Shown: piece by piece, positions 1 to 44,924 of the stretch
Layout of the letters: every line of letters begins with the position of its first letter
Numbering within the stretch: position 1 is the stretch's first letter
Assembly (NCBI RefSeq): GCF_027942865.1
Contig: NC_134524.1
Coordinates: forward strand, 2,826,536 to 2,890,535
DNA from: Odontesthes bonariensis
Lineage: Eukaryota > Chordata > Actinopteri > Atheriniformes > Atherinopsidae
Direction: 5' to 3'
Length of the DNA: 64,000 bases
Translations under genes and position numbers: made by a program
The notes under the pieces: generated by a model
The model's input: only the letters and a program-made list of their open reading frames with translations
The model's database searches: none
Told to the model about the DNA's origin: nothing

Positions 1-465
1 GAGTGTATTGGTCTAAATGCATCACTCTGCTCTGCAATGTCTTTTACTGCGATTTGTGTGGATCCACCTCAGCAAAGGATGTGTTTTATGATCATCTTCA
101 GACAATCTTAAATCACTGCAACTCGAAGAAGGAAATCATCCTACTCGCTGATTTTAATATCAACTGGAACATCAAGTCAGGGAAAAAATTACAATTTGAG
201 ACAAATTATGAAAGGAGCGACAAGAATAACTAATACGTCAAATACAACAATTGATCTTATATTTACTAATAATCCTGAAAGACTCTGTAAGACTTTTAAT
301 CTATTATCTGGCCTGTCAGATCACAATTTTATCTTGTGCTCATGGAAAATTAAGAGGAAGCATTTAATGGCATCCACCAGAGGTCACCAGTTCTACTTCA
401 TACCCAAAAGCCAGCAACAATTCCTGAATGAGGAAATCCAAAATCTAGAAGGTCTAATATTCTGA
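1..465 (+). pseudogene. LINE endonuclease-domain fragment (L2/CR1-like)
   Basis: Two overlapping frames together read as the C-terminal part of an apurinic-type LINE endonuclease. The first contains LLADFNINW (the GDFN-like catalytic block). The second contains TIDLIFTNNPER and LSGLSDHNFIL (the SDH catalytic block). The frame switches near 200, so the copy is broken, and it is cut off on the left by the window edge. The same segment occurs in reverse orientation at 43505-44090, including the shared stretch around the words 'gtctaaatgcatcactctgc', so this is a repeat and not a host gene. The clade was judged from motif style only. Confidence 0.75.
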
Positions 466-483
466 AAAATAACGACATTGAGG

Positions 484-800
484 CTCGCTCAGATAATAAT
501 AATAATAATAATAAATTTATTTGTATAGCACCTTTCACAGAAAATAAAATTCACAAAGTGCTTCACAATACGATGCAAGTCAACATTTCATATACACACA
601 TAAGAAAACACAGTAAATGCAGAAAAGCATGAGGCTACAGAGCAGATGGGCACTTTAAGAACAGATAAAAGCTATTTTAAATAGGTGGGACTTCAGATTC
701 TTTTTGAAAATGTCTAAAGAAGTTGCAGACCGTAGACAGAGAGGAAGAGAGTTCCAAAGAGTTGGAGCCACTACCTCAAAGGCACGATCACGCTTTGTCT
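484..800. repeat. Interspersed repeat beginning with (TAA)n
   Basis: A short TAA run (about 497-512) leads into an AATTTATTTGTATAGCACC-type stretch and a segment about internal exon-like words (GAGAGGAAGAGAGTTCCAAAG). From memory this composition is common in fish interspersed repeats. No open frame of any quality is visible. It separates two LINE fragments. Confidence 0.45.
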
Positions 801-923
801 TTAGACATGCTGCAGCTTGGGGATGTCGTCAGGAGACATGGCATTAGTTTTCACAGCTATGCTGATGATACACAGCTTTACATTGCCGTGTCTCCTGATG
901 ACCTAGAACCAGTTAACGTTCTT
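800..923 (+). pseudogene. L2-like LINE reverse transcriptase, left half of a split copy
   Basis: The frame reads [15 protein letters not shown], the YADD block (RT motif C) typical of L2/CR1-type LINEs, followed by DLEPVNVLL. It stops abruptly at TTAA (924-927), where the Kolobok-like element starts. The reading resumes after the element's second TTAA (7494-7497) with CILDIKS and then MAENFLQLNQ. The two halves therefore belong to one LINE copy that was the insertion target. Confidence 0.8.
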
Positions 924-927
924 TTAA

Positions 928-945
928 AGATCCTATGACATGAAA
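928..945 (+). repeat. Left TIR of the Kolobok-like element
   Basis: This 18-bp terminal segment matches the reverse complement of 7476-7493 at 15 positions. It lies directly inside the TTAA at 924-927. Confidence 0.8.
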
Positions 946-1206
946 ATAAATGGAGGCTTTTATATATTTTTAGAGGCTTTAGTGGTCCCCTTATACTGTA
1001 TTATACTGTATATAGGCAACATTCTGCCTTGGTGCAGAATTACAGCCAGTCCCAAAATGAGTTTTTCTTAGGATCCTCAGAATGAGCTGTTTAGGGCCTG
1101 CAGCTTTAAATGCAAATTAGGAGGAGAAAGACGGGGCAAAGCGGAGGGTGGGGGTGTGGCCTTACTTCCGCCCTTGGTACCATGCGCAAATGCGTTGTGA
1201 ATCGCT

Positions 1207-2368
1207 ATGGCACGTAGAACAGCAGTCGTTCAAGCTTTTCAATTTGACCCAGAGTCTGATCCAGATGGAGAAGAAGTTGAAGAAGTTGAAAATCAGCGAC
1301 TACAGCAGGACGTCTCTGAATGGTTAGTTAAGTATTTCGCCGTTAATTTAGTTTGTTTTGCTTATGTGTTGTTACAGATATTATCATGTGGGCTTAGCTA
1401 CCTATGCTGAAGTAGTTGTATGTCTAGTTATATCAGTAATCTTTGTCATAAAAAAGAGCTATGCAGCCTTCACATCCATGTAAATCATGTTGCACATTAC
1501 TCATGATTTATTCCTGAAGATAAATGTTCACCGTATGAAAAATAATATTTGATTTACTCCAGAGCACATTTGATGTTTACTTACTCAACAGCCACAAGCT
1601 AGACACTAACAAGCCATTATACCTTTTTATGTTGTTTATATCCACCTACATTTTTTACATAGGTGCCATTGTGGAAAATGTGCAACTATGCCCACAGAAG
1701 TGAAGAATATTTGCTGCCTTGAGATACCACAGGTAACATTCTCACCACCTCACTGGAAAATAATTTGTCTCTTCTTTCGGCAACTAATTTTGCTAATAAA
1801 TGTCACTTACCGTTTCTAATTCTAAAAAAGGTTACTACACGACTTCGGGAGGTCGAAGAACAGCTCCCATGCATGGTAGACCATCCTGGATTGGAGCCTG
1901 TCTGCCTAAATGTCTACTCACTTCAAAATGCCAGCCAAATATACAGAGCAGACTATGGTCCTCTACAGTTCAGAGAAATACACCGGTAAATTGTGCATTG
2001 TTAGATAAGTTAATAACAGAAGTTTAGAGTTTTGACTTTGTATTCCAATAATTTATTTATTTTTGTACAGCGAGGGATGGGGTGGGGGGGGGGGGGGGAC
2101 ACAAAACAGACCGAATATGATCCATTGGTGCATAGAATTATTTTTTCACACACACAATGATACATTCAGAATTTAATATCTAAAATTTCTGAATCAATTG
2201 TTCAGTCGCTACAGGTATCTGTCCTGTCGCAGTTTTGTGAGCTGGTGCTGGGGCTTCTTGGGACGCAGAATCCGGGTTGTAATTCCAGCCTGTGTGGTCC
2301 TGCGCATCCGCTCGGAGTTTCCTGATGAGGAAGGCCACTATGTTGGGTTTAAACGGCCCCCTGTTTGA
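1207..2368 (+). CDS. P2X7 C-terminal (ballast) domain protein, four exons, apparently intact
   Basis: Exons 1207-1322, 1663-1732, 1831-1985 and 2206-2368 join in frame at GT-AG junctions to give 167 residues with no internal stop. The N-terminus is acidic (DPDGEEVEEVE). Exon 2 starts with WCHCGKC and has NICC, cysteine groups like those that bind zinc in the P2X7 ballast domain. Exon 3 ends LQFREIHR. Exon 4 contains SFVSWCWGFLGRRIRVVIPAC, IRSEFPD and YVGFKRPPV, which follows the C-terminal end of P2X7 closely. There are no transmembrane segments or channel ectodomain, so this is the cytosolic domain alone. It sits inside the TTAA-flanked element, convergent with the transposase and overlapping it by 20 bp. 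A poly(A) signal lies at 2620-2625. The role in transposition is unknown; nucleic-acid or protein binding is only inference. Confidence 0.8.
2052..2057 (-). terminator. Candidate poly(A) signal for the transposase gene
   Basis: TTTATT on + is AATAAA on -, about 290 bp after the transposase stop. If used, the transcript would cover the last coding exon of the opposite gene. Confidence 0.45.
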
Positions 2369-2619
2369 ACCTTGAAACAAAGCTGGCAATGACCTCCTCC
2401 TTGTCCGGCCTCTCATACTGCGCTGATAAGTTTTCTGGGACAGAGATGGCCAACAGCGCATCGTTGTATGGTGTCGGGTTAAAAAAGACTTCATCGAAGA
2501 TTAGGTCCATCATGTCAGAAACATAACCTGTATCATAAAGCACAAGCAATATCTCCATTTAATTGGTTGAGTTTTGTTTTTACTGTGCATTTGTATGTAA
2601 TCCATTTTTCTTCGAGAGA

Positions 2620-2625
2620 AATAAA
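2620..2625 (+). terminator. Candidate poly(A) signal for the ballast-domain gene
   Basis: AATAAA lies about 250 bp after the stop at 2366-2368 and is the first such signal downstream. If used, the transcript would run antisense through the last transposase exon. Confidence 0.45.
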
Positions 2626-3544
2626 TGTTAAAATTCCAAACAATGTGTCATTTTAATTGATTTGAACCATTACCAAAGGTCGCCTTCGTCTTTACTGGTT
2701 TAGCTCTGCACTCTCCCTTCCGAGACTTTGGAAAGGAGAGTTTAAAGAGGGGTACACCTTCCTCCGTTTCGGCCTGTGGTCGTTCCGCATTTTCATTGAA
2801 ATGCATAGCAGCCAGGTAGAGTCTGGAAGTACAAGATAAAAATATTTGTTCATATTGACAGATATTTTAAACTAAAATTCCTAAAAGTATTGAGTAAAGA
2901 TTTGTTTTACCTGCACAGCATTCCAATAAAGGGAAACACTACATTTTTTGGAGCAAAACGAAGGATGACTGCATGGAAAGCCTCCAAAGATGACGTTTGG
3001 TGGTGGGGGCTCAGTTTTTCCACATCCTTCAGCGTTCTTTTCTTTGTCAGCAGAGACTCCAACTTGTAGAAAGCTGGAGTTGCTGCAAACAATAACAAAA
3101 TATCTTATTAGAAAACAATACAGTAACAAATATCACAGCAATGACCTCGTTGTTTGCTTGTCTGTTTGCTGTTTTAACATTTTGCCTGCATATTGGTTGA
3201 GATACCTGCTTGGAGCCATTTCTTTTTGTCCGTTGTTGTGCGGATTGCATGCTCACACTTGGGGTAAAGAGGATTCTCATGCGTGTGGATATCTTGCACA
3301 TGGTTGAGGATCGCGTTCCACTTGGCAATTCTCTCTGGCCCTGAGGTTGAATTAGCTGCAGTCCAGTATATGTGGTTGTTGATGCTTTTCATCCACTTGT
3401 TCAGTTTCTCACAGTCTTTCATCTTACATAGGACTTCCAGTTTCTTTGAAATTCCTAAAATGAAAGCAAACAACATTCCACTTAGTAAAGAGTAAGAGTG
3501 ACAACTATGCTGTAGCAATTCAAAAACAATTTCAAAGCATTTGA

Positions 3545-3925
3545 TAATATTGACTCATAATGTCAGCATTTGACTGTCCAACATCACTGCTGTCAATTTT
3601 TCTGATGACACAGCAGTAGTTGACCTAATTTCTAAGAACAATGAGCAGGCTTACTTGAATGAGGTAGATAGACTTTCAAACTGTTGCCAAGACAACAACC
3701 TACTCCTATTGTTACCAAGACTAAGGAGATATATATAGATTTCAGGCAATATCAGCAGAAAGTCTACCAACCAGTCCAGATTAACGACTCTGAGGTGGAA
3801 AGAATAGATCTTGGTGTTGATATTTCTGAACATCTGACTTTGACCAAACATGTTGATTCACTGGTGAACGCCAGCGTCTTTTCCACCTCAGATGCCATAA
3901 GTACTTTAGGTTACCTGAAAACCTG
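3545..3925 (+). pseudogene. LINE reverse transcriptase fragment in transposase intron 7
   Basis: The frames read SDDTAVVDLISKNNE, then a segment like YQPVQINDSEVERIDLG and LTLTKHVDSLV. This is the RT motif C and following region of a non-LTR element, with several shifts. It lies between exons 7 (ending 3935) and 8 (starting 3454) of the transposase, in the opposite orientation, so it enlarges the intron without touching the splice sites. I did not find a clear target duplication. Confidence 0.6.
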
Positions 3926-5823
3926 AATAGTTACCTTTTGCGAAGTGCCACACATCGTAGTACTGGGTGATGTTTCTCTCCCTGAGGAACTTTTGAACTT
4001 GAGGATGACGATCGGTGACAATGCAATCCAGTTTGACGTCACGCGACTCGAGCAAGGCCAGACTCCTCGTCAGGCCCTCTTTCTCCATATAGCAGCTACC
4101 ACCAACCTCGTTGCTCTGTCACCACAGAAAAAAAACACATTAGTAGACAATGTATTATGGACCTTGATTTTTAAATTACAACAAATAACCCCTTTACAGA
4201 GTCAATTTCAACAACTCACCTGGACCAACTGAATGTCCACAACGGTGTTAGTTTGGAGATCCATCATGGTGTAACTCCCATATTTGCAGAGTGACCTGTT
4301 AAAAATTGGGTTTAAATAATGACACTTGGAATCACTATTCAATACATATTATGTATTCTTATATTTAGGTGCAATTCATAACTTCACATAACAACACACT
4401 GCTTAGAGCCATCAGACCTGGTCCCTGGCTTTTGTGTGTCTCAGAGCCAGCACTATTACACTCTGATTGCTGGCCTTTGGCTACAGATAGTTGGAGCTAA
4501 AGACCTTGATAAAACCACCCCCTGCCTGCTGTCATTCCTTTGAACTTCAAACAATATCACTGTACAAAATACAATACTTCAGTCAAGTAACAATACCTGG
4601 AGAATCAGCCCTCATGTCACCACCGAGTATGACTTTTTCCTCCCGAGTAAGCCGCTGCAGATTCACATCCTGTGTGACTTTCCAGTGGTGAATAACTGCA
4701 GGTTCAATGAAGGCTCTGGCATGCCGGCGAAATGTTTCATACCGAAACAACTCCAGCTTCATTGCCTTGAAGACCTGGGTGTGGAGGGGAGAAATAATAC
4801 ATGTAATTTGATATAAATACAAGTATTTCAGTTACGGTATCTACAGTTGCACATACTTTACCTTTTCTATTTGTATGAAAGATGCACCACTCAGGTACAC
4901 AGCGGCAGAAAGGTGCAGGTTTCCAGCTGGCGTGCTACCCAGGATAGGGTGGCTATTCCATTGTCTTCTAAATGTGCAGTGGGGACACCGCTGCTTCACA
5001 GACAGGAATGTCCCCAGCCTTTGAGTCTTCACATCACATGCCCGTGTGCAGACCGGACATGCATTAAACAACTGCATGATGCAGTTCTCGTACACTATGT
5101 ACTTCTTGATGTGGGTGGAAGTGGAGGACTCCTCTCTATATAAAACCACAAAGAAAGCAAAACACATTTTGAGTTGATCAGATTGAGCTTTCATCTGGAC
5201 AGTACTTTAAACCAGCACACTCCTTGAAGCCGGATGAATAATCTGTATGCACATAAATAATCCTAAAAGTAATGCTATAAACAACAACAGTCTCGCTGAG
5301 ACCAATCCTTCATGTTGGAATGCCATACAATTAAAAAAAAATTATGAAAGTTCTCACAATCCCTACATTTTCTTCACACTCACACACAGATAATGATAAC
5401 TTACAGCCTCAGTGTAGAGTTTTCGGACGCTGTGACAGAGTCTGCAGGGTCATAAGTGGAATCCTGTCCCTTTGGGGTATCCACTAAAGAGCTTCCCTCC
5501 AATGCATCATCTTCCTGCTCCTCCTCAAGATCCAATCGAGGTCTTTTGGATGGTCTCTTTACTGGTGTTGATGACAGGAACAAAGGGTCTACCTTGGACG
5601 TCCCAACACCAAAGTCTTTGCAGGAGACAGTTGCCTGGACACCTGCAACAAATATCACCATTGTACCGTCAGGATGTATGTTTGTTTGATATGTCAAGTC
5701 ATTCATGTGTATGACATATGATGTATTCATACAGTGACAGCACTCTTCTAACCCAATTTCACATGTGGGACAATAAAGTTAATCTCATCTTATTGAAGGT
5801 GGCTAGAACATACCTTCACTTCT

Positions 5824-6302
5824 TTCTTTTTTTTACTTTATTGCCAATAACGTATAGGCAATACAAACAAACACACCACACAGAAACAGACAAATAATAA
5901 TAATAACAATATTATACATAAAACACACATATACAAATAAAATTGAAAATTAAAATAAAATTAAAATAAAAATACATTAGAAAAAAAAAGGTTCACCTTG
6001 ATTGCAAGCTTATGTTACATTCGTCTTATACAATTATATGCTTAACCAATATAAAGAATGACAGGTGTCCATCTCCTAAGGAAAAGGGGTAATTTTAACT
6101 GTAGAATGGCAGTCATATTTTCCATCACTTGGACTTGATTACACCTCTGTCTCCATTGAGCCACTGTATGAGGCTCAGGCTGCATCCAACGCATTGTAAT
6201 AATTTTTCTTGCGATCATTAGTAAGACATGCAAAATATAACACTGGTCTTTAGTAAAGTTTTGTTCTGTTGTTTTCTCAAGCAAAATAAATACAGGGTCA
6301 AA
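5824..6302 (-). mobile_element. 5'-truncated L1-type LINE insertion at a splice donor
   Basis: This is a - strand LINE 3' end. Its coding tail contains the words YILHVLLMIARKIIT and VMENMTAILQL, the C-terminal region of fish L1-type ORF2, followed by AATAAA and an A-rich tail (T-rich on + at 5824-5836). It is flanked by a perfect 14-bp duplication ATACCTTCACTTCT at 5810-5823 and 6303-6316. The duplicated target contains the 5' splice site of transposase exon 2, so the donor now exists twice. Confidence 0.85.
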
Positions 6303-7475
6303 ATACCTTCACTTCTGATGTGGGCCTTCAAAGTCCTAAAGGATAGCTGTGTGGCTACAGTATGTGTTTCCAGTTGGTCTGTCTGGCAGGCAACATCCCT
6401 TGAGAGAGGCAGCTGAATAAAAGCACTTGATGTGCTGGCCTGTGTAGATACAACAAGGTCAAATTAGTACAAGTTATTACTTTGTATATCTTCCAAATGC
6501 AAGTTTGAAGACTTAGCCCTATGCTAATCGCGATTTTGACATTCTCAGCTGATTGCTCTGGTTTGCAAAGATGGACGTAGTGCTAGTCATTTTAATCAGG
6601 GGAAAGGCAGATATCGTGCGCGCCATAACACCAACAGCAGGACGGCTATCAAAACAACAAATAAGTACACAACACTGGCGTTACAGTAAATGAGGTGTCC
6701 ACTCGCATACCTCATGCTATTTACAGTTACATTAGCGACAGTAGCTGCATTAGCTATTAGCTGCAGAGCTAACGATACTTTCAGGACACTTTCTTGTGGT
6801 AACAAGCTATTTAACTATACTGTACATACATAAAAGCAAGACAATTATAGAGCGTTAAATTACTTACTTGTCCGAGGTCTGTAGTTGGGCCAAAGAGAGT
6901 TGGTACTGATCCAGGGTTCATTTTAAGACGATCGGCAAGGCCAGCTCGGTATTGCCCCAAGTTTTGGAAACAATCCTCCGTGAAATGTTTGGCGCACACA
7001 TACACAAATCTCTTCTGTTCTTTGGTCACTTTCCCAGAAAAAACAAAATCTGACCACTGGCTCTTTAGGGGTTCTGATGCAGGAGCTTTAAAAAGATTTT
7101 TTAGATCCGTTGTACATCCATGTACAGAGCAAATGTTATGCTTTCGATCAGCCATGGTGTGTTAGATATCCTACGCAGAAAAATCAAGATGGCGTTGCGC
7201 AGACTTTCAACTGATTTTACAATGAGCTGGCCAAAGAGCTGTGGGCGGGGAAAGGCAGTTTATTGGCTCTGGGTGGAAACAACCTCCACGTCATAAGCGG
7301 GCACACGTCATAAGCGGCGGCTTTCTCGATCAGGCCTTCTGCATGGTCACATTTCCAAAGGCAGAGAATAATTTCCAGTGCATGGTTTAGGTCTATCGTC
7401 ATTTTTAGACACTGGGGGACCGCAAGCAGGCTAGAGGAACTCATATTAATGTTAAAAAACCTTAAAAAGTGAAAA

Positions 7476-7493
7476 TTTCATGCCATGGGACCT
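7476..7493 (-). repeat. Right TIR of the Kolobok-like element
   Basis: This is the inverted partner of 928-945, ending in GGGACCT directly before the TTAA at 7494-7497. Confidence 0.8.
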
Positions 7494-7497
7494 TTAA

Positions 7498-8240
7498 ACT
7501 GTATTTTAGATATAAAGTCATGAATGGCAGAGAATTTCTTACAGCTCAACCAGGGCAAGACTGAAGTTTTGATTATTGGTCCTGAAGACAAGAGAGAGAT
7601 AATTTTACCCAAACTACAACATTTTAAATCTTCTCAACATGTAAAAAATTTGGGTGTTCTTTTTTACTCTGAGCTGGATTTTATCCAACATATTAGAAAT
7701 GTAACAAAGACAGGATTTTATCATCTTAAAAATATTGCCAGAGTCCGCCCATTTCTCTCTCTTACCAGCACGGAGGAGCTGATGCAAGCTTTTATTTCTA
7801 GTAGAATAGATTATTGTAATGCCCTGCTTTCTGGTCTTCCCAAAAAAGTATTCATTACCTACAATTAATACAGAATTCAGCTGCACGTGTGCTGACGAGG
7901 ACCAGAGGGCGGGAACATCTTACACCAGTTTTAAAATCGCTGCATTGGCTCCCCGTGCGTTTCAGGATTGATTTTAAGGTTCTTTTAGTTGTTTATAAAT
8001 GTCTTAATGGTCTTGGGCCTTCTTATCTATCTGATCTGCTTTTAAATTATGAGCCCTCGCGGACCCTGAGGTCCTCTGGTACCGGCCTTTTAGTTGTTCC
8101 TAAAGTTAGAACAAAAACTTATGGTGAGACGTCGTTCCACTATTATGGACCTCGTCTGTGGAACAGCCTGCCAGAGAACCTCAGGGCTGCAGAGACTGTT
8201 GATGTTTTTAAAAAAAGGCTCAAGACCTTTTTAGTTTAGC
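7498..8240 (+). pseudogene. L2-like LINE reverse transcriptase, right half of the split copy
   Basis: This continues the LINE begun at 800. It reads MAENFLQLNQGKTEVLIIGPED, then RIDYCNALLSGLPK. The frame then shifts near 7850-7890 and resumes with LTPVLKSLHWLPVRFRIDFK and RLWNSLPENLR, ending in LKTFLV with a stop near 8240. These blocks are the thumb and C-terminal region of L2-type fish LINEs. A W-to-stop change just before MAENF and the later shift make it a pseudogene. The A/T-rich 3' tail runs to about 8350. Confidence 0.85.
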
Positions 8241-8667
8241 TTACAGCTGAATTTTATTTAATTAATTATTTAATTTATTATTTTATATATATATATTGTT
8301 TGTTTGTTTTGTTTTATAGCAACTGCAGTTGCTATAACTTTTACTGTCAGTTATTGTCAGCCCGGGAGGAAATCTGCTCGCACAGTCTCAGCGCACAAGA
8401 AAATCTATGCAGAGCATAAAATAAATTCACCATAAACGTATTAATTCATATCTAATACTAGACCTAATCTAATGTAATTAATTAGACCAATACTGTGTTT
8501 TTCTGTACCATTTTTCAATATAACGCAGTGAGTGACAGGTGTTCAGCCAATGATACGGCTTACTTGCGCTATGCAGCCAATCAGAGCATTGATGGTGCTT
8601 GCATATGTGCCCTGCCCATATGCGCCGTGCAGGTTAGCTAGCTAACAGTGAGACGCAACCCCTTATC

Positions 8668-8787
8668 ATGGCGAAACGAACAGGCAGCGCCAGCGACACA
8701 TCCACTCACCGAGCCAAAGTAAAAAAGAAATGCGGTTCTTTTAGGATGGAATGGCTGTCTGAGTGCAAACAGAAGAACAAGCGCTGA
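8668..8787 (+). pseudogene. Possible hAT-type transposase first exon remnant
   Basis: A 39-residue frame starts MAKRTGSASDTSTHR and continues KKKCGSFRMEWL before a stop. From memory this resembles the N-terminus of zinc-finger/hAT transposase-derived fish proteins. The mirror copy is at 34466-34347 on -. No downstream transposase domain is present in either arm, so the arm is at best a nonautonomous derivative. The family call is tentative. Confidence 0.35.
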
Positions 8788-9870
8788 AACTGGGTCAGAT
8801 TTTTTCTTTTTCGAGCGAGAAAGGTCTACTCTGCAAAACAAGGCTGCAAGCATGACTCTCACATATAACAGATAACATACTACACATCTCATGAACAACA
8901 AGATTTTTGTCTTTTTCATTTTAAGTGGGCCAAATCGCTTTTATTAAAAGTAAACTAATGAAAACTGCTGCTGTGATTTGATTCTTTTAATAAGCCATGT
9001 AACTGGCTATGATCCAGGGTTTTGAACAGGTGTGATACAGGTGTGTGGCCACAGCGTGCACATCTGATGCTGCTCACAGTGCTCCTCAGTGTGCTCAGGG
9101 AGCTGGTGTGTTTGCCCAGACACATGAAAAATTAGAGGGAAGGCAGCTAAGTATGATGGAGTATCCCTCACTACTTTTGCCTCCCTTCATATCAATGCTA
9201 ACAGCCACCTAGCGATAGCCGCAGCTGTTACGGTGTTTGCTGCTCGGAAGCAGGGGAGTGCTCGGGCTGCACTTCGGTCTGCACGGTTTACACAGCAGGC
9301 AGTGATACGAAGGGAGAGAAAATAGGGCCAAGCGATGTGAGCTCTGACTTTTTCTGGAGGGAGGGTTTTGTGATGCAAATGTATTACTCTTTGGAACGCA
9401 TATTGTTTTGAGAAGCAAAACGCTTTATTTTCGGGACCTTAGCAAACTAGCCGGACTACTTTCATCAACACCAAAACGAGGCTGGAACTCTGCTCACAGG
9501 ACGCAGCAGGGGGAAGAAGATGTTCAGAAATGATGTTGCTGATATGGGATGTCATACAGCTTCATGTCAGAAGAGGCGAACTGTCCCTTTAACTTTGATG
9601 TGAATCTTTCTAAATATTTTCTGTTTGTTTGTTCTTTAGTTTTTTGTCATGGTGTATTGTCTGTATGTTTTTATGATACCTGCCTGAGGACAACGGATGA
9701 AATTTAGCAGCTGTGCTAACTCCGGCATATTTACATGGATGCTTTGCTGATATGTTGATTAATGTGCAGAGTCCTAACCAAATAAATAAGAAATAAAATA
9801 AAAACCTCCTCCACACTGACCTGTGGCCCGGTGGACCCAGAGGATGAGCCGGCTCTGTTCCTGGTGGAGG

Positions 9871-18052: not shown

Positions 18053-20781
18053 GATGTTCCGAGATGAGCCGAGATGAGCCGAGGCTTCGCAGTGTGTGTC
18101 GGGTAATGGGCCGTTTCTCAATGTGAGTATTTTTTTTTTATTTTTTTTTATTCAAATGTCACATAGACAAAACAATGACATACTCAGAAGTAAACAATTA
18201 TTATTTTTAACTTTACATATTTACACCTCCACATATAGAAAAAACAACTTGAAGGATCTTAAATGCCCAAGATAAAAATAAATAAATAAATAAATAAATA
18301 AAATAAAAAGGGGGATAATAAAAAATAAATGAATAAAATAAATAACTTCTAAACAGTTACAAGAGGTCAGGACAGGTTAAGATCTTCTATGAGTGTGTAT
18401 AATTTATTTGCATGGGGATTATTTATATGTTTCAAACAGTTTTGTAATGAGGATATATTATTTTTTAATGCAAGCCATGAAGGTGGGGATTTGGCATATC
18501 GACACTTGTGAATATAAAATTTTGTGATGATGATGAGGTTATTTATCAAGAACTCTGTTTTCTTATCTTTGAGGATTACGCCTACTTGGATATCTTGAAA
18601 AGACCAAAAATCTGTGCTCATGGAACTGGATGATGATAAGTCATGTAGAGATTTCCACAAATTGTGGACAGTCTCACATTCATAAAATAGGTGTTCTGTT
18701 GTTTCCAAATTTATTTTGCAGTTTTCTACAACAAATTTAAATCTTCTTTTTAAAAATTCATTTGAGGGATAGATGTTGTTTATACTTTTGAAATGAACTT
18801 CTTTACATTTTGGGGGAACTGGGAATTTTAAGTATTTTGTCCGAATATTTTATTTTTCACATTTGTTATAATTTCTAAGAATGAATGAGCTTCTTGCTAT
18901 ACCTGGGTATAAGGTGTTTACTGAGTACTGTCTTAAAAATTTATTATTACATTTATCACTTACTAGGTCCAAATCATCTAACTTTATTTGATGTAAATTT
19001 GGAGTTGGAATGATCAAGATATTGTTCTTTATTGATTGGATAAGGGCTTGTGGGATATTCTGTATAACTTTCCTATAAGTCGCACTGGAACAATACAAGC
19101 TATATTTAGCATTAAAATAATTCAATTCAAGAATGTTTCCATTATCATCCATTATGTGTCTAACAGACCAAATTTGTTTAGTCATCCAGTCTTCCATAAA
19201 CACAGACTTCCTTCCACTCAATATTACCCGATTATTCCACAATGGTACATTATGAGGGCTGAAATTATGCTTGAACATCAGTTTCCAATTCAACAAAAGC
19301 TGTTGATGAAATTTGGATAATTTTATGGGCAGTTTTGAAATTTCAAAATCACAGACTAAGAGAAAATCAATGCCTCCAACTTTCTTAAAAACAAGAGAAG
19401 GTAGCGAGAACCATATCTCATCATGATTTCTTAAGAAAGAACGAAGCCATTTGATCTTCAATATACCATTCATAATTTCAAAATCAATTGCTTTTAAGCC
19501 ACCATCCTCATAATCCTTTATCAAATCTCCATTTTTGATGTAGTGATGCTTATTTTTCCATATGAAATTAAAGTTCATTCTATTGATTTCTTTTATAATT
19601 CTAGGTGGGATGGCGAGGGAGTATGCTGGATAAATGAATCTGGATAATGATTCAACCTTGGTTAACATGGTTCTGCCGAATAGCGTTAAGTCTCTTTGTA
19701 GCCAATTATTTAAAGTTTTTTTGCACTTGTCAATAGTATTTTGAATATTCTTTTTTTCACTAACTTCTTCACATTTAGTTATCCAAATCCCTAGATATCT
19801 GGTCTCCCTTTTGACAGGCATATCATACAACGAAGAATCAGAACAGTCATGGATACTCATGAGTTCACATTTGTCCAGATTCAGGTGCAAACCTGAGTCC
19901 TGAGAAATTTTTTTTATTGTTTCTAAGGCTAATGGAATTTGATCCTTATTTCTTAAAAATATAGTTGTATCATCAGCAAGCTGACTTATAATCAATTTGT
20001 GGTTGTTTATGTCTAACCCTTCAATATTTGAATTTAAAACAGTAATAGCTAGTAGTTCAGTGGCTATAATGAATAAAAGAGGTGAAATGCTGCAACCCTG
20101 CCTGATGCCTCTTTCTACCCTGAATCTGGAACATGTACCTTCTGAGAGAGAAACACAGCTGTTAACATCAGTGTGTAACATTGTAATCATATCAAGAAAT
20201 ACTTTACCAAACCCAAAATGTTTAAGTGTGTTAATAATGAAAGCATGTTCAATTGAGTCAAATGCTTTGCGGAAGTCCAGGAACATCATAAAACCATCAT
20301 CCTTAATTAGATGATTGTAATCAATAAGATCCAGAACCAGACGGATATTATTATGGATCGACCTTCCTTTGAGGAATCCTGATTGTGTTGGGCTAATTAT
20401 TTTAGAGATACCGGTTTTTAATCTTGTAGCCAAAACTTTTGTAAATATCTTGTAGTCCGTATTTAATAGTGTTATAGGTCTAAGGTTGTTTAAATTTTTT
20501 TTATCTTTTCCAGGTTTTGGAATCAATTTTATTACCCCTTGTTTCATTGTTTCTATGAGCTCTTTTTGATTAATGCATTCAACTAAAGCTTGAGACAGTA
20601 AGAATTTGATATCTTCCCAAAAGTGTTTATAGAAGTTTGTTGTTATTCCATCCGGCCCTGGTGATCGATCAGAAGCCATGTTTTTAATAGCAAGATCAAA
20701 TTCATTGATAGTCAAATTTTCGTCACAAATATCTTTAAAGTTATCATCAATTACCGGAATTAAATTCTTGATTTTGTCAAA

Positions 20782-23700
20782 TCCTCCTTCCTATGGGCTC
20801 ACCACCCGTGGGAGGGGCCATGGGGGTCGGGTGCAGTGTGAGCTGGGCGGCAGCCGAAGGCAGGGACCTTGGCGGTCTGATCCTCGGCTACTGAAGCTGG
20901 CTCTTGGGACGTGGAACGTCACCTCTCTGCTGGGGAAGGAGCCTGAGCTGGTGCGCGAGGCTGAGCGGTTCCGGCTAGATATAGTCGGACTCACCTCGAC
21001 GCATGGCTTGGGCTCCGGAACCAGCCTCCTCGAGAGGGGTTGGACTCTCTTTCACTCTGGAGTTGCCCGCGGTGAGAGGCGTAGAGCAGGTGTGGGCATA
21101 CTTATTGCCCCCCGGCTGTGCGCCTGTACATTGGGGTTTACCCCGGTAGACGAGAGGGTAGCCTCCCTCCGCCTTAGGGTGGGGGGACGGGTCCTGACTG
21201 TTGTTTGTGCTTATGCACCGAACGGCAGTTCGGAGTACCCACCCTTTTTGGAGTCCCTGGAGGAGGCACTAGAGAGTGCTCCTCCGGGAGACTCCCTCGT
21301 CCTGCTGGGGGACTTCAATGCTCACGTGGGCAATGACAGTGAGACCTGGAGGGGCGTGATTGGGAGGAACGGCCCCCCCGATCTGAATCAGAGTGGTGTT
21401 TTGTTGTTGGACTTCTGTGCTCGTCACGGATTGTCCATAACGAACACCATGTTCAGGCATAAGGGTGTCCATATGTGCACTTGGCACCAGGACACCCTAG
21501 GCCGCAGCTCGATGATCGACTTTGTAGTCGTATCGTCGGACTTGCGGCCATATGTCCTGGACACTCGGGTGAAGAGAGGGGCGGAGCTGTCAACTGATCA
21601 CCACCTGGTGGTGAGTTGGCTCCGCTGGTGGGGGAGGAAGCCGGTCAGACCTGGCAGGCCCAAACGTATTGTGAGGGTCTGCTGGGAACGGCTGGCGGAA
21701 TCCCCTGTAAGGAGGAGTTTCAACTCCCACCTCCGGCAGAGCTTCAACCATGTCCCGGGGGAGGTGGGGGACATTGAGCCCGAATGGGCCATGTTCCGTG
21801 CCTCCATTGTTGAGGCAGCCGACCGGAGCTGTGGCCACAAGGTGGTCGGTGCCTGTCGTGGCGGCAATCCCCGAACCCGCTGGTGGACCCCAGTGGTGAG
21901 GGAGGCCGTCAAGCTGAAGAAGGAGTCCTATCGGGCCTTTTTGGCCAGTGGGACTCTGGAAGCAGCTGATGGGTACCGACAGGCCAAGCGGAACGCAGCC
22001 TCGGCGGTTGCTGAGGCAAAAACTCGGGCTTGGGAGGAGTTCGGGGAGGCCATGGAGAACGATTTCCGGACGGCCTCGAGGAGATTCTGGTCCACCATTC
22101 GGCGGCTCAGGGGGGGGAAGCGGTGCACCGTCAACACCGTGTATGGTGAGGGCGGGGCTCTGCTGACTTCAACTAGGGACGTCGTGAGTCGGTGGGGGGA
22201 ATACTTCGAGGGCCTCCTCAATCCTACCGACACGCCTTCCGATGAGGAAGCAGAGTTGGGGAGCTCGGACGTGGGACCTCCCATTTCTGGGGCTGAGGTT
22301 GCCGAGGTGGTCAAAAAACTCCTCGGTGGAAAGGCCCCGGGAGTGGATGAGGTCCGTCCTGAGTTCCTCAAGGCTCTGGATGTTGTGGGGCTGTCTTGGT
22401 TGACACGCCTCTGCAGCATCGCGTGGACATCGGGGGCAGTGCCTCTGGACTGGCAGATCGGGGTGGTGGTCCCCCTCTTTAAAAAGGGGGACCGGAGGGT
22501 GTGTTCCAACTATAGGGGGATCACACTCCTCAGCCTCCCTGGTAAGGTCTTTTCGGGGGTACTGGAGAGGAGGATCCGCCGGATAGTCGAATCTCGGATT
22601 CAGGAGGTGCAGTGTGGTTTTCGTCCTGGCCGTGGAACAGTGGACCAGCTCTATACCCTCCGCAGGATCCTGGAGGGAGCATGGGAGTTCGCCCAACCGG
22701 TCTACATGTGTTTTGTGGACTTGGAGAAGGCGTTCGACCGTGTCCCTCGGGGACTCTTGTGGGGGGTGCTCCGGGAGTATGGAGTGCCGGACTCCTTGAT
22801 ATGGGCTGTTCGGTCTCTGTATGACCGGTGTCAGACTTTGGTCCGCATTGCCGGCAGTAAGTCGGACATGTTTCCTGTGAGGGTTGGACTCCGTCAGGGC
22901 TGCCCTTTGTCACCGATTCTGTTCATAATTTTTATGGACAGAATTTCTAGGCGCAGCCAGGGCGTTGAGGGGGTCCGGTTTGGCGACCTCAGAATCGGGT
23001 CTCTGCTTTTTGCGGACGATTTGGTTCTGTTGGCGTCGTCGGGCCGTGACCTTCAGCTCTCACTGGAGCGGTTCGCAGCCGAGTGTGAAGCGGCTGGGAT
23101 GACCATCAGCACCTCCAAATCTGAGACCATGGTCTTCGGCCGGAAAAGGGTGGAATGCTCTCTCCGGGTCGGGAATGAGATCCTTCCCCAAGTGGAGGAG
23201 TTCAAGTATCTCGGGGTCTTGTTCACGAGTGAGGGACGAATGGAGCAGGAGATTGACAGACGGATCGGTGCGGCGTCTGCAGTGATGCGGGCTCTGCACC
23301 GGCCCGTCGTGGTGAAGAAGGAGCTGAGCCAGAAGGCGAAGCTCTCGATTTACCGGTCAATCTATGTTCCTACCCTCACCTATGGTCACGAGCTGTGGGT
23401 AGTGACCGAAAGAACGAGATCGCGAATACAAGCGGCCGAAATGAGTTTCCTCCGCAGGGTGGCTGGGCTCTCCCTTAGAGATAGGGTGAGAAGCTCGGTC
23501 ATCCGGGAGGGGCTCGGAGTAGAACCGCTGCTCCTCCGCATCGAGAGGAGTCAGATGAGGTGGCTCGGGCATCTTGTGAGAATGCCTCCTGGACGCCTCC
23601 CCGGTGAGGTGTTCCGGGCCCGTCCCACTGGGAGGAGACCCCGGGGAAGACCCAGGACACGTTGGAGAGACTATGTCTCTCGGCTGGCCTGGGAACGCCT

Positions 23701-23828
23701 CGGGGTCCCCCCAGAGGAGCTGGAGGAAGTGGCCGGGGACAGGGACGTCTGGGTCTCTCTGCTCAAGCTGCTGCCCCCGCGACCCGATCCCCGGACCAGC
23801 GGAAGATAATGGATGGATGGATGGATGG
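20782..23828 (+). mobile_element. RTE-like LINE inserted in L1 ORF2, antisense to it
   Basis: Flanked by ATTTTGTCAAA at 20771-20781 and 23829-23839. The 3' tail is a short ATGGATGG tandem run, not poly(A), as in many RTE-type fish LINEs. The 5' end is truncated: a longer 5' region for this family is seen at 59385-59720. Its coding frame is fully open. Three other copies lie in this window (35038-37138, about 50711-51075, and 59385-64000). Confidence 0.85.
20800..23809 (+). CDS. RTE-like LINE endonuclease/reverse transcriptase, open frame
   Basis: The frame is open from inside the L1 antisense sequence to the stop at 23807-23809; the LINE part is about 1000 residues. Order: endonuclease ([57 protein letters not shown]), a linker ([19 protein letters not shown]), RT ([59 protein letters not shown]), thumb ([16 protein letters not shown]), and a basic C-terminus ([15 protein letters not shown]). 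All catalytic words are present (GDFN, SxDHH, FADD). The true start is not visible because the 5' end is truncated, and the first ATG of the long frame lies in L1 sequence. This is the best-preserved LINE frame in the window. Confidence 0.85.
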
Positions 23829-25251
23829 ATTTTGTCAAAAAAGGATGTGACATTTTGCTCTGAGTACGAGGATTTGTAAAGGTTACTATAAAACTTAAAA
23901 ACTTCATTTGAAATGCGTTTAGGATCTGTGCATTCTTCTCCATTGATCAATAAACTACAGATTGAATTATGTTCTTGTCTGCGTTTTTCAAGGTTGCAAA
24001 AATAGGCTGTGTTTTTTTCTCCTTCTTCTATCCATCTGGCGCTGGACCTCACATAGGCACCCTTGGCTTTATTCAAGTACATCACATCTAATTGGCATTG
24101 CAGGTTATTAATTCTTTCTTTTTCTTCCTCAGTCCAATCTAACTTGCTATAAAGAGTCATAAGTTCTTTAACCACATTTGTTTCTTCTTCTCTCTTTTGT
24201 TGGTTTAGTTTTTTACTAAATGAGATTGAGAATTTTCTAATACTAAATTTGAGAAATTCCCATTTAGATATTGATGTGCTAATGTTGTCATCATTTTTAA
24301 TATCCAAAATTAGTTTTTTAATAGAGTTACAATATTCCAAATTCCTTAGCAATTGGGAATTAGATTTCCAATAATCTTTAAATTTATTACTTGGATCTTT
24401 GTTTTTTAGTCTCAGATTAATAGTACAATGGTCACTCAAAGGACAATTAGAGATCATCGTCTCTGTAACATGCTGTGAAATTGAATAAGATATCAACCAA
24501 TAATCGATGCGTGATCTAATTTGACCATTGGGTTTGTACCAAGTAAATTGTTTGATATCTTTATTCAAGGTTCTCCAGATATCTATCAAATTGTTGCTGT
24601 TAGTAAAGTTTTCTATGATAGGGTTTTTACACTCTCTTAAAAGTCTTGAAGGCCATCTATCCATCCATTCATCAGGGGTTAGATTAAAATCACCTCCAAC
24701 CACTATATGATCAGTAGGAAAATTTGTATTAAGTTCTCTTATGACTGTTGATATCTCATGTAACAAACATTTATTATTTTGATCACTATTGTACCCATAG
24801 ATATTAACTAGAATAATGAGGATGTTATCAATATTCAAAACACAAGCAACCCAATGTCCATCCTTATCCACCTTGTTACACAGGATCTTACCAGGGCATC
24901 TGTTGAAACAAATGGCAACTCCAGCTGAACGGTTTGTGCCATGACTGAAAAGGATTTTGTCACCCCATTGTTGTGACCAAAACTTGACATCAGATTCATT
25001 AGAATGAGTTTCCTGGAGAAAGATGCAGTTTGCTTGTTGCCCCTTGCAGAACAAAAAAACAGCTTTACGCTTAATTGAGTCTTTAAGTCCCCTTGTATTG
25101 AAAGAAAAAAAAGAAATGTCAGTTTTCAACTGGAACACAGAACACATTAACAAAGTTTAAGAAAAGTTTAGGGAGGTGGAGTAAAAAAACCTTGAGATTA
25201 AAGTCCCATTTTCAGGAATGATCCACATTGTATTCAATTCACCTTCATATA

Positions 25252-26133
25252 TCAGCCCACATCGGGAGTCTCAACCGTAATGCGCTTGCCTTCTATGAAA
25301 CCAAATGGGCCCCTGAAGCCCGCAGCTTTGCCTTCCTTCCTTGCCTGGTCGATTCTGGGCCACATTGCTTGTCTGTACTTCCAGTCCTCTTGGGTCAGGT
25401 CTTCAGCAAAGCGGATTCCTTCATCTTTACACACAGGAGAAGCTCTTGTACGCCTCCAGATGTCATCTCTCACTGTACGTCTCACAAACAGGATGATAAT
25501 TGGTCGAAACCTGTTCTCCGTCGCACGCCCCACTCTATGAACAATGTCAACTGCTTCGTCCATTTTCGTCTTCAGGTCTGGTGCAATTTTTCCCAGAAGC
25601 TCAACCACCTCTGCTCTGATGTTTTCATTCACTTTCTCTTTTTTTCCTTTGATTCGAAGGCACCATCTTCTTTTGTATCTTTCTTGATTCAGCACACGAC
25701 CTTTCATGTCTTCATTATCTTTTGTGAGTGATTCGACCTGTTTTCCCAGGTGTTGTATTTTTGTTTTGCACTCTGTTAACTCCTCTGAATTGAACTGCAC
25801 CGACTTAGCAATAGCAGCCAGCATGGTGCTATGTTGTTGCATTTGTTTGCTAACTTCCTCCATGCGGTCGTCAACACGTTTTCCAAGAGTGGCAATAGCA
25901 TTAATTATGGATTCGGTAGAAGATTTAAGTTCGTTTTCCTGAGACGTACCTTTCGCTTTCTTCTCCATTTGTGCTTTTTCTGGAGTGTCGGGGGTTGTCG
26001 AGTTTCTGTCACGTTTGTTGTTGCTAGCGCCAGCGCTAGCCGTTTCCATCGGAGCTGAGTAGTCATGTTCATTACTGACTGCGAGTTGGAGGATTTTCGC
26101 TGCCGAAGGTTTCTCACTGTTGTTTTTTTCCAT
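25252..26133 (-). CDS. L1 ORF1 protein
   Basis: 293 residues, intact. ORF1p is the RNA-binding chaperone that coats L1 RNA. The N-terminal third is low-complexity and basic (NKRDRN, EKKAKG). Residues around 80-150 form a heptad-rich coiled coil (VDDRMEEVSKQMQQHS to VESLTKDNEDMKGRV). An RRM-like segment follows (RRWCLRIKGKKEK, VDIVHRVGR), then a C-terminal domain (RPIIILFVRRTVRDDIWRRT, AEDLTQEDWKYR). This order is standard for L1 ORF1p. The next gene, ORF2, starts 98 bp downstream on the same strand. No inactivating change is seen. Confidence 0.85.
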   Translation of the reverse strand: MEKNNSEKPSAAKILQLAVSNEHDYSAPMETASAGASNNKRDRNSTTPDTPEKAQMEKKAKGTSQENELKSSTESIINAIATLGKRVDDRMEEVSKQMQQHSTMLAAIAKSVQFNSEELTECKTKIQHLGKQVESLTKDNEDMKGRVLNQERYKRRWCLRIKGKKEKVNENIRAEVVELLGKIAPDLKTKMDEAVDIVHRVGRATENRFRPIIILFVRRTVRDDIWRRTRASPVCKDEGIRFAEDLTQEDWKYRQAMWPRIDQARKEGKAAGFRGPFGFIEGKRITVETPDVG

Positions 26134-26277
26134 GTTCGGGCTGATTTTTTTCGTTTTAACTGGAAATAAAGTGGATTGTATAAGTTCAAAGACTGTTACA
26201 TCAGGACTTTAGTTGGAGCTCAGACGGATGCGACTGTTCAGATCGCCATCTTGCCGGAACCCCCTCAATGTGAGTAT

Positions 26278-37352: not shown

Positions 37353-40300
37353 CAATTCAAATTCAAAAATACATTATTTATCCCAGAGGGAAATTAAATG
37401 TTGATGTAGCTCAATTAAATCAGGGAGTTATTTTAGATGCTGATGGCTGTGGGCAGGAAAGATTTCCTGTAGCGGTCCGTTTAGCATCCAAACTGAAGAA
37501 GCCTTTGACTGAAGAGACTCTGTTTTCCGATAACAGTCTCATGGAGAGGATGTTCAGGGTTGTCCATAATTCTCTTGATTTTATGCAAAATCCTTCTTTG
37601 CATTATTGTCTCCAGAGGTTCCACAGTCGTCCCCAGAACAGAACCAGCCTTCCTTATCAGGTTGTTGAGTCTTTTTAGGTCCCTGGTTCTGATGCTGCTG
37701 CCCCAACAGATGACGCCAGAGGAAATGACGCTCTCAACAACAGACTTGTAGAAGATCTGCAACATCTTGTTGCAAACCTTGAAGGACCTTAGCTTCCTCA
37801 AGAAGTAGAGTCTGCTCTGTCCTTTCTTGTATATGGCTTCACTGTTGTGTCTCCAGTCCAGTCTGTTGTCCAGATGAACACCAAGGTATTTATATTCCTC
37901 AACCACCTCCACTTCTTCTCCCATGATGGAAACAGGGTTTGATCTGACCCTGTTTCTCCTGAAATCTACAATCATCTCCTTTGTTTTGTTAACATTCAAG
38001 ATGAGATGATTGTTCCCACACCATGCCACAACGCGGTCCACCAGCTCTCTGTCCTCAGCTTCTTGTCCATCTCTGATACACCCGACAACTGCAGAGTCAT
38101 CTGAATATTTCTGTAGATGACAGGAGTCTGACTTGTACTGGAAGTCTGAAGTGTACAGAGTGAAAAGGAATGGTGAGAGTACAGTCCCCTGTGGTGCTCC
38201 TGTGCTGCTGATCACCTGGTTAGACACACAATTCTTCAGTCTGACAAACTGTGGTCTGTTTGTCAGGTAGTCATTAATCCAGGTGATTGTTGAGGCCTCC
38301 ACCTGAGTCTTCTGGAGTTTCAGACGAAGCAGATCAGGCTGGATTGTGTTAAATGCACTGGAGAAATCAAAGAACATGATCCTCACAGTGCTGCCTGCTT
38401 TGTCCAGATGACAGTGGGTTTGTTGAAGCAGGTGTATGATAGCGTCTTCAACCCCAACTCCATGGCGATAAGCAAACTGCAGGGGGTCCTGATATGTGCT
38501 GGTTTGCTTACACAGGTGGGTCAACAGGAGTCTCTCCAGGACCTTCATGATGTGGGATGTCAGGGCAACAGGTCTGTAGTCATTGATGTCTGAAGGGTGA
38601 GTTTTCTTTGGTACCGGAACCAGACAGGATGTCTTCCACAACAGTGGTACCTTCTCTGGGGTCAAGCTAAGGTTGAAAAGGTGTTGCAGAATCCCACAGA
38701 GCTGCTCTGCACAGGCCTTCAGGACTCGGGGGCTGACACCATCTGGACCTGCAGCCTTGTTCCGGTTCAGTCTCTCCAACTGCCTCTTCACCTGACTTCT
38801 AGAAACAGAAAAGTGGGAGGGGGAGGCAAAGGGGACAGCAGCATCTCCTGATTGGGTTGATGACAAACTAGTGGAAGCAGAAGAATCCATGACTGAGGTG
38901 GAGGTGGAGATGTTACAGGAAAGCTGTGGGTCAGAGGAGAGTGGGATGTCTCTTTGGCTGGGAACAGGAGGGGAGGATGGTAAGCTTGTTCCTGAACTGA
39001 ACCTGTTGAAGAATGTGTTCAGCTCATTTGCTCTGTCCAGACTTCCATCCATCCGATCCTCCCTCTGCTTGAGGCCTGTGATCTTCTTCCTTCCTGACCA
39101 CACATCTCTGATATTGTTCCTCTGCAGTTTACTCTCAAGCTTCTTTCTATACACCTCCTTGCTCTCCCTGATCTTGACTTTGTGCTGCTTCTGTATACTC
39201 CTCAGTAACTCCCTGTCTCGCTCCCTAAAGGCTCTTTTTTTCCTGTTCAATAGTTCTTTTAGCTCACTGGTGATCCAGGGTTTGTTATTAGGGAAGCATC
39301 TCACTGTTCTGGTGGGGATGGTGTTGTCCACACAGAAGTTTATATAGTCAGTCACACACTCAGTCATGGCATTAATGTCCTCTCCATGTGGCTTACAAAG
39401 AGAAATCCAATCGGTTGCATCAAAACAACCCTGTAAGGCTTCTTCAGCTTCCTGTGACCACTTTCTAACAGTCCTTTTTGTGACAGGTAGTCTCTGGACA
39501 AGGGGTTTATATGCAAGGTTGTGATCTGATTTTCCCAGGGGAGGTCTTGATTTGGAAATGTATGAATCCTTGACATTTGTGTAAAACAAATCCAATGTCT
39601 TGTTTTCTCTGGTAGAGCAGCTGACAAACTGTTGAAAAGTTGGCAGTGTAGCAGAGAGTGAGGCATGATTAAAATCACCAGATATTGCCACAAAAGAATT
39701 GGGGTGTCGTGTCTGTATCTTAGCAACAACGGAACTGATGACATCACATGCAGTGTCGGCAACAGCTGAGGGTGTAATGCAAACAGCCACCAAAAAAACA
39801 CTGGTGAACTCTCTTGGCAAATAATATGGATGAAAACTTACTGCCAATAGTTCAATGTCAGGACTGCAGAGACGACTCTTCACAGTAACATGTCCTGGGT
39901 TACACCATCTGTTGTTGACGAGCACTGCCAATCCACCCCCTTTCCTTTTCCTGCTACTCTTTAAATCTCGATCTGCTCGTACAGTCAGGAAGCCCGGCAG
40001 AGAGACGCTGGAGTCAGGTATATGATCCTGTAGCCATGTCTCAGTAAAACACATAATGCTACATTCCCGATATTCTTGCTGAGTCCTTGTCAAGGCTTAA
40101 AGTTCATCCAACTTGTTAGCTAACGATCTTACATTTCCCATGATGACGGATGGCAGAGATGGTTTGAACTTCTTCTTTCTTTCTCTCCTCTTTGCTCCTG
40201 CTCTGCATCCACGACGCCTCCTTTTCAATTCCAGTGGGATTTCTGGCTTCAGTTGTCGAATTATTTCTGCTTTTCCAATGTTATTCAGCTGCTCCCTGTT

Positions 40301-44090: not shown

Positions 44091-44924
44091 GTTAAGAACA
44101 GCAAAGTGTTTCCTGGTTTCATCTCCTCTCTCTGAGCTGCAGATCCAGATGTGCTCAGACTCAACATGTGCTGCAGGCTGAATGATCTGCTGGAAGAAAA
44201 TCAGTGGGCAGATTGTTGTGGTGGGACGTTTTCTGGCTCTGTCTGCAGATTTGAGAGGTTCAGGAGCTAATCTTCATTATATGCGTTTAAAGTCTCTGGG
44301 TTACATGAATTGAACCTGGTGGTGGTAATATTCTGGCTCTTTAATGGTTAGATGACAGGTTTGTAGAGTTGTTTTAACAAAGAGAAACAGGTTGAGTTAA
44401 AACGGACTGTGTTTCCCTGATGGCTGTTGAGCTGAATGGCTGCAGACCTCTGAGTTGTAAGCTGGAACAGAGGGTTAGTGTAAAGAATGTCATGTATTAC
44501 CACCGCTGTTACTTTTATTCCTTTAAACCAGCGGTCATCAACCTTTTTCAGCCCAACCTCTACATGGTGTTTAAGTGAACAACTTGGACAAGACTCTGGT
44601 TCCTTCCATCATTTAGAAATATTGTAGCTCAAGTTCCTTTTCAGAGTTTCATCATGACAAAAAGAATTAGTAAAAGAGCAAAAAGCAAGAGTTTACTGCT
44701 TAAAAAGCTGAACGTGTGCAGAACACATCAGAGCACAGTGCTGATAGCTGAGGGCACTTATAAACGCACCCTCAGCGTTTACGTTTAATCTGAGATATTG
44801 AGACCTGTGTGGCTCAGTCTGTCTAGCTCCAGTTAGAATATGTTGGTTAGCGTAGGTTAGCTTAGAGAAAGCATTTGTGTGAACATCAAAAGGATTTAAG
44901 TCTTCTTCCTCTCTGTCGTTGCAG

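Follow-up and report, generated by a model that had tools for sequence, protein, structure and literature searches.

Kolobok transposons are defined by termini of the form 5'-RR ... YY-3', unlike those of piggyBac, and members of their Kol0 group have been described as encoding a DDE transposase together with a second protein, KolX, which has the fold of the ballast domain of the P2X7 receptor (Kojima and Bao, 2022; Mob DNA 13:24, PMC9587614). According to the same work, Kol0 elements occur in vertebrates, annelids, cnidarians and sponges, P2X7 arose via fusion of a P2X4-like gene with KolX, and zebrafish Nanor is likely a domesticated KolX. Here we describe a Kolobok-type element of 6,566 bp that lies between TTAA copies at positions 924–7497 of a 64,000-nucleotide stretch of the genome of the fish Odontesthes bonariensis (contig NC_134524.1, positions 2,826,536 to 2,890,535 of the forward strand; this whole stretch is referred to below as the window). 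In all probability it is a copy of a recently spread, autonomous, KolX-bearing (Kol0) transposon, in which KolX would act as an accessory factor, the ballast of P2X7 being in turn a domesticated KolX.

The likeness to the Kol0 elements of PMC9587614 extends to the TTAA duplication, the RR termini, the DDE transposase and the second, ballast-type protein; in the window family, however, the ballast domain is split over several exons and the cysteine C573 (rat P2X7 numbering, used throughout) is absent. The original prediction for this stretch, made from the sequence alone, held that P2X7 may have gained its ballast from such an element, which is already the published conclusion of that 2022 paper; this prior statement limits the surprise of the present case. 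What is added here are the convergent layout of the two genes, their overlapping ends, the counts and the selection results. The accessible portion of PMC9587614 contains no mention of the strand layout of KolX, of overlapping coding ends or of copy counts, and a convergent arrangement of KolX and transposase was not found in the accessible literature on Kolobok, KolX or the P2X7 ballast; among the Kolobok and KolX papers listed, only PMC9587614 seems, judging by title, to use the name KolX in the ballast sense.

Two other bodies of work are close. The Xenopus XKol Kolobok elements (Zoological Lett. 2018, PMC6004289) share with the window element TTAA sites, AG termini and the THAP and DDE motifs, but no second gene is reported in the accessible part of that paper and the term 'P2X' is absent from its main text. 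The P2X7 ballast and Nanor proteins (Rump et al., 2020, PMC7016195) have the same cysteine pattern and belong to the same Pfam family, but the sections of that paper available to us take the ballast to be an ancient domain of the host, represented by fewer than 10 genes in each species, as opposed to the 150 scored matches (exon pieces counted singly) reported below, and the strings 'transpos' and 'Kolobok' each occur 0 times in its main text. It describes P2X7-type ballast without a P2X body in sponges, cnidarians, molluscs and arthropods, a guanine-nucleotide site in the P2X7 ballast, a linked pair of markers in invertebrates and a THAP domain, printed TAHP, in an Ixodes model; our guess is that these linked markers are parts of a transposase. 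According to the abstract of PMC9859053, it is still unknown what the nucleotide and zinc sites of the P2X7 ballast do.

The main features of the element are as follows (window positions).

924–927, no strand: left target-site duplication TTAA (copy comparison, see below)
928–945, plus strand: left terminal inverted repeat, AGATCCTATGACATGAAA; 15 of its 18 bases agree with the right end
1207–2368, plus strand: ballast (KolX-type) gene, exons 1207–1322, 1663–1732, 1831–1985 and 2215–2368, 164 aa (Pfam, PDB, copy comparison)
2349–2368, no strand: 20-base overlap between the coding ends of the two genes, which lie on opposite strands (both gene models)
2349–7155, minus strand: THAP plus DDE transposase gene, 11 exons (GT/AG borders, Pfam, copy comparison)
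7155–6868, 6439–6307, 5642–5405, 5135–4862, 4774–4597 and 4295–4220, minus strand: transposase exons 1–6
4115–3935, 3454–3206, 3082–2911, 2822–2674 and 2527–2349, minus strand: transposase exons 7–11
6868–7155, minus strand: transposase exon 1, which carries the THAP domain (Pfam, E 4e-9)
7476–7493, minus strand: right terminal inverted repeat, in reverse complement AGGTCCCATGGCATGAAA (comparison with the left end)
7494–7497, no strand: right target-site duplication TTAA (copy comparison)

The predicted TTAA duplications are present at both borders, and the 18-bp terminal inverted repeats, although present, are imperfect. The termini of this copy are AG...CT, in agreement with the Kolobok rule. 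When the flanks are rejoined, a single reading frame of a long interspersed nuclear element (LINE) spans the joint and runs into a stop nine codons past it; by eye, the insertion site is a decayed LINE. Members of the P element superfamily have an 8-bp target duplication, and that assignment was rejected on the grounds of the TTAA duplication.

Both spliced genes of the original prediction were found, with 4 and 11 exons, but the transposase of the window copy is frameshifted, one base being missing in exon 6; in open copies it has 705 aa. Its THAP domain is recognized by Pfam (a PDB search gave two weak THAP matches, E 0.055 and 0.48), whereas the DDE part was identified by eye from the motifs GDMRADSPG, VTDRH, DVWH and SLEAF, which correspond to the D, D, DxxH and E of Kolobok transposase. 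The C/DxxH signature of Kolobok reads DVWH here and DIWH in a second family described below, in each case downstream of the presumed second D, also as judged by eye, and a H..H..C..H run fitting an H2CH zinc finger before the last E was seen by eye only.

The 164-aa ballast protein, assigned here by sequence, matches the Pfam family P2RX7_C (PF20478, E 6.9e-12) and four P2X7 sequences of PDB (best E 4e-5). It contains all of the words WCHCGKC, ICC, GRRIRVVIPAC and YVGFKRPPV from which its relationship had been predicted, and a Pfam scan of the spliced protein detected no P2X channel body. An alternative acceptor, with the last exon starting from 2206, would add 3 codons. Searches of the GTDB genome contigs with this protein, and of the IMG/VR viral contigs with both proteins, yielded no relatives, which is what one would expect of an element from animals. 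The two genes are convergent, and the ballast stop codon (2366–2368) falls inside the last transposase coding exon, which ends at 2349. Poly(A) signals noted by eye (AATAAA at 2620 on the plus strand and its complement near 2052–2061 for the minus-strand gene) suggest that the two transcripts would overlap by about 550 bases, within 2050–2625.

The mobility of the unit was assessed in the 945-Mb genome, in which the window lies on contig C24. A 377-bp left-end probe gave 40 scored matches out of 578 candidates, 26 of which (window included) span the whole probe, and 20 of the 39 other places were fetched. All 20 start at TTAA on the left, all 17 that extend to a right end finish there with TTAA, and the left flanks are of 17 kinds. 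The left flank of L010 is that of the window and three other flanks are each common to two loci, so that some copies are duplicated loci. A comparison of window positions 1–9000 with C24:2773700–2782500 (L010) shows the insertion site and near flanks duplicated 53 kb away on the same contig. Among the 18 two-ended copies (window included), 14 encode the full 164-aa ballast protein and 12 an open transposase (703 aa in L016), both frames being open in 11; the mean divergence among the 14 copies longer than 6,500 bp (window included) is 0.35%. Thus, the element has spread recently in this genome, complete units carrying both genes have inserted at many TTAA sites, and the shared TTAA ends in varied flanks, together with the 11 doubly open copies, indicate that the ballast gene travels with the element.

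These observations leave next to no room for the idea that the ballast gene inserted separately into a Kolobok element, which its own exons and opposite strand might have suggested. The ballast stop codon falls within the final coding exon of the transposase (overlap 2349–2368), a repeat search of window positions 500–8200 found no matching repeat pair bounding it, the two-ended whole copies carry it, and at three loci with a transposase 62–68% identical to that of the window the ballast and transposase matches abut or overlap. No boundary separating the ballast gene from the rest of the element, which had been named beforehand as a sign of accidental coupling, was found.

We then asked how regularly the two genes occur together, using the best 150 of 595 candidates from a search with the Pfam P2RX7_C profile (exon pieces counted singly), pairing distances of 1.5, 3 or 10 kb, and transposase rows that are the matches listed, typed in part. 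A Kolobok-type transposase exon lies near 87 of the 150 listed ballast matches, and the pair is convergent in 87 of 87. When the best 30 ballast loci were compared with pieces of two transposases, 25 had a transposase exon within 1.5 kb, on the opposite strand and downstream of the ballast; most of the best loci therefore do not lack the transposase, the other outcome that would have spoken for a chance association. The five remaining loci are L029 (P2X7), L030, L042, L043 (with a transposase exon at 6 kb) and L056. Among the 120 lower-ranked matches, 54 lie no more than 3 kb from a window-like transposase exon, all 54 convergent (0.07 pairs expected at random places), and 7 further ones pair with exons like those of the second-family transposase. 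Conversely, 58 of the 97 typed transposase rows have a listed ballast within 3 kb. Copies within one family are not independent. Clustered at 80% identity, the 30 loci and the window fell into 12 groups, namely P2X7, the orphan L030 and 10 element families, and every one of these 10 families has at least one convergent pair (for the L042/L043 family, at a distance of 6 kb only). Within this one genome, then, the ballast gene does lie repeatedly beside a Kolobok-type transposase, in 87 of 150 matches and in 10 of 10 families, as had been proposed.

In the second family (L054 joined with its overlapping neighbour L059) the pair is again convergent, although the ballast domain occupies a single exon and the transposase is only 24–36% identical to that of the window (homology of the two is shown by tblastn, E 6e-17). 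The left end TTAA|AGGGACA, whose AGGG start also follows the RR rule of Kolobok termini, is shared by three copies that differ in their flanks, and the right end TGTCCCT|TTAA is visible in one copy. No THAP domain was found in the 68-aa N-terminal piece of this transposase, the sole part scanned. The presence of the same pairing beside so diverged a transposase implies that, set against how far these transposases have diverged, the pairing is old. In a third family (L060), with window-like transposase exons, the ballast and transposase matches touch.

The last exon of the second-family transposase also has a separate distribution on contig C28, where 44 rows between 0.94 and 5.07 Mb, 30 of them at 4.5–5.1 Mb, match that exon only (query residues about 55–143 of 145, 38–56% identity, E down to 1e-13). 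The DDE part of the same transposase has no match within C28 0.94–5.07 Mb. These rows may represent a host gene family carrying a transposase tail exon, or the reverse.

Comparison of the ballast coding sequences between families provides evidence on the role of the protein. Ten between-family comparisons (one with the orphan L030) gave proportions of nonsynonymous differences (pN) of 0.16–0.39 and of synonymous differences (pS) of 0.59–0.88, pS being close to saturation. Two other pairs, almost identical, carried no information, and P2X7 versus L030 gave pN 0.45 and pS 0.86. The ballast gene is under purifying selection between families. The original prediction had left it undecided whether the protein is cargo or a transposition factor; this selection favours a transposition factor and disfavours cargo. 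Passive carriage of a host gene that one element had picked up would agree with the loss or truncation of the ballast gene in three of the 18 two-ended copies (L018 and L019, which are without most of it, and L028, in which it is truncated; in L020 it is 18 nt shorter). Cargo captured once would, however, be expected to decay, and the convergent pairing is found in each of the 10 families despite their widely differing transposases; we regard passive carriage as very unlikely.

By analogy with the Kolobok family, the THAP domain of an autonomous Kol0 element would bind the terminal repeats and the DDE domain would cut and join at TTAA. KolX would be a small, zinc-folded accessory protein required for the spread of the element, its most likely role being to join the transposase complex as a partner or to regulate it, and the ballast of the P2X7 receptor would be its domesticated form, as argued in the accessible part of PMC9587614.

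Cysteine counts among the 31 element rows (near-identical copies and L030 included) speak for this reading: all 30 rows that cover C477, C479, C482, C498, C499 and C506 have these six, all 31 have C572, and 29 have C573. The guanine-nucleotide residues are conserved in part, R578 being kept in 31 of 31 rows, R546 in 26 and H547 in 24 (Y in 7), whereas R574 and K583 of rat P2X7 are found in 0 of 31. Position 574 is V in all 31 element rows and in the fish P2X7 (L029); two PDB chains have R.

P-element transposase needs GTP. Together with the nucleotide site of the P2X7 ballast mentioned above, this need prompts a bolder proposal, namely that KolX could be a zinc- and guanine-nucleotide-sensing partner of the transposase, a two-protein counterpart of the GTP-dependent P-element transposase, that the P2X7 pocket might be inherited from a transposition factor, and that the convergent overlapping genes might let the element limit itself via paired transcripts. 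The partial conservation of the nucleotide residues weakens this proposal, which we consider unlikely.

The best P2RX7_C match in the genome is the host P2X7 gene (L029), with the P2X body exons upstream on the same strand (C7, 6.145–6.152 Mb); P2X exons placed before a ballast are found on C7 at 6.145–6.163 Mb. It is the sole P2X locus with a ballast among the matches listed, and no Kolobok-type transposase exon was found near it. In a tree of the ballast sequences, of the kind called for by the original prediction, the three P2X7 rows form one group, but the tree is unrooted and cannot show direction, so that the direction of descent rests on the literature. An unrooted tree is compatible with the elements having taken KolX from P2X7. 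That reverse transfer nevertheless appears highly improbable in view of the ballast proteins without a P2X body in sponges, cnidarians, molluscs and arthropods (PMC7016195, accessible part), the distribution of Kol0 elements from vertebrates to sponges given above (PMC9587614, accessible part) and the single ballast-bearing P2X locus among the matches listed here.

The next best P2RX7_C match after P2X7 is the orphan L030 (C17:5404018–5404491), an intact 168-codon frame with all eight cysteines and no transposase within 10 kb among the matches listed. It is a candidate domesticated (Nanor-like) gene.

Several points weigh against this overall reading of the element, KolX and P2X7. All data come from one genome. 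Among the matches listed, 63 of the 150 ballast rows (two of them host P2X7) have no near transposase, and 9 of 41 typed ballast rows have none within 10 kb: P2X7, L030, L041 (a weak one in the 1.5-kb comparison), L042, L056 and four lower-ranked rows. In the other direction, 39 of the 97 typed transposase rows are without a listed ballast at up to 3 kb; many of the 39 belong to the window family, whose copies do carry the gene but with a ballast exon that falls outside the best 150 matches. In the window family V stands at C573, and the C506 match hinges on a 12-residue alignment gap, so that zinc binding may be partial in the window ballast, which is also highly divergent, sitting on a very long branch of the tree (end branch 2.93).

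P2X7 is a drug target in inflammation, and ten families that keep a ballast-type protein by selection beside a transposase, some of whose copies have both frames open, make the function of the ballast before P2X7 testable.

Two introns of the transposase gene contain fragments that resemble other mobile elements.

5824–6299, no strand: retroelement-like fragment in transposase intron 2, in all 18 aligned copies (retroelement nature by eye)
3560–3926, no strand: LINE reverse-transcriptase-like fragment in transposase intron 7, in all 18 aligned copies (LINE nature by eye)

The presence of the 5824–6299 fragment in all 18 aligned copies makes it older than their spread. It is bracketed by a 17-bp repeat pair (5807–5823 and 6300–6316, 94% alike) that spans the splice donor of transposase exon 2, and since the repeat copied this donor, splicing can survive.

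Outside the element, the window is rich, as far as the list of open reading frames shows by eye, in other mobile elements and in C2H2 zinc-finger frames, stretches of which lie at 47338–48420, 18367–26208, 37481–40096 and 44883–45875. The first of these is a Tc1-like transposase frame, and among several LINE frames one apparently interrupts another near 18–25 kb.

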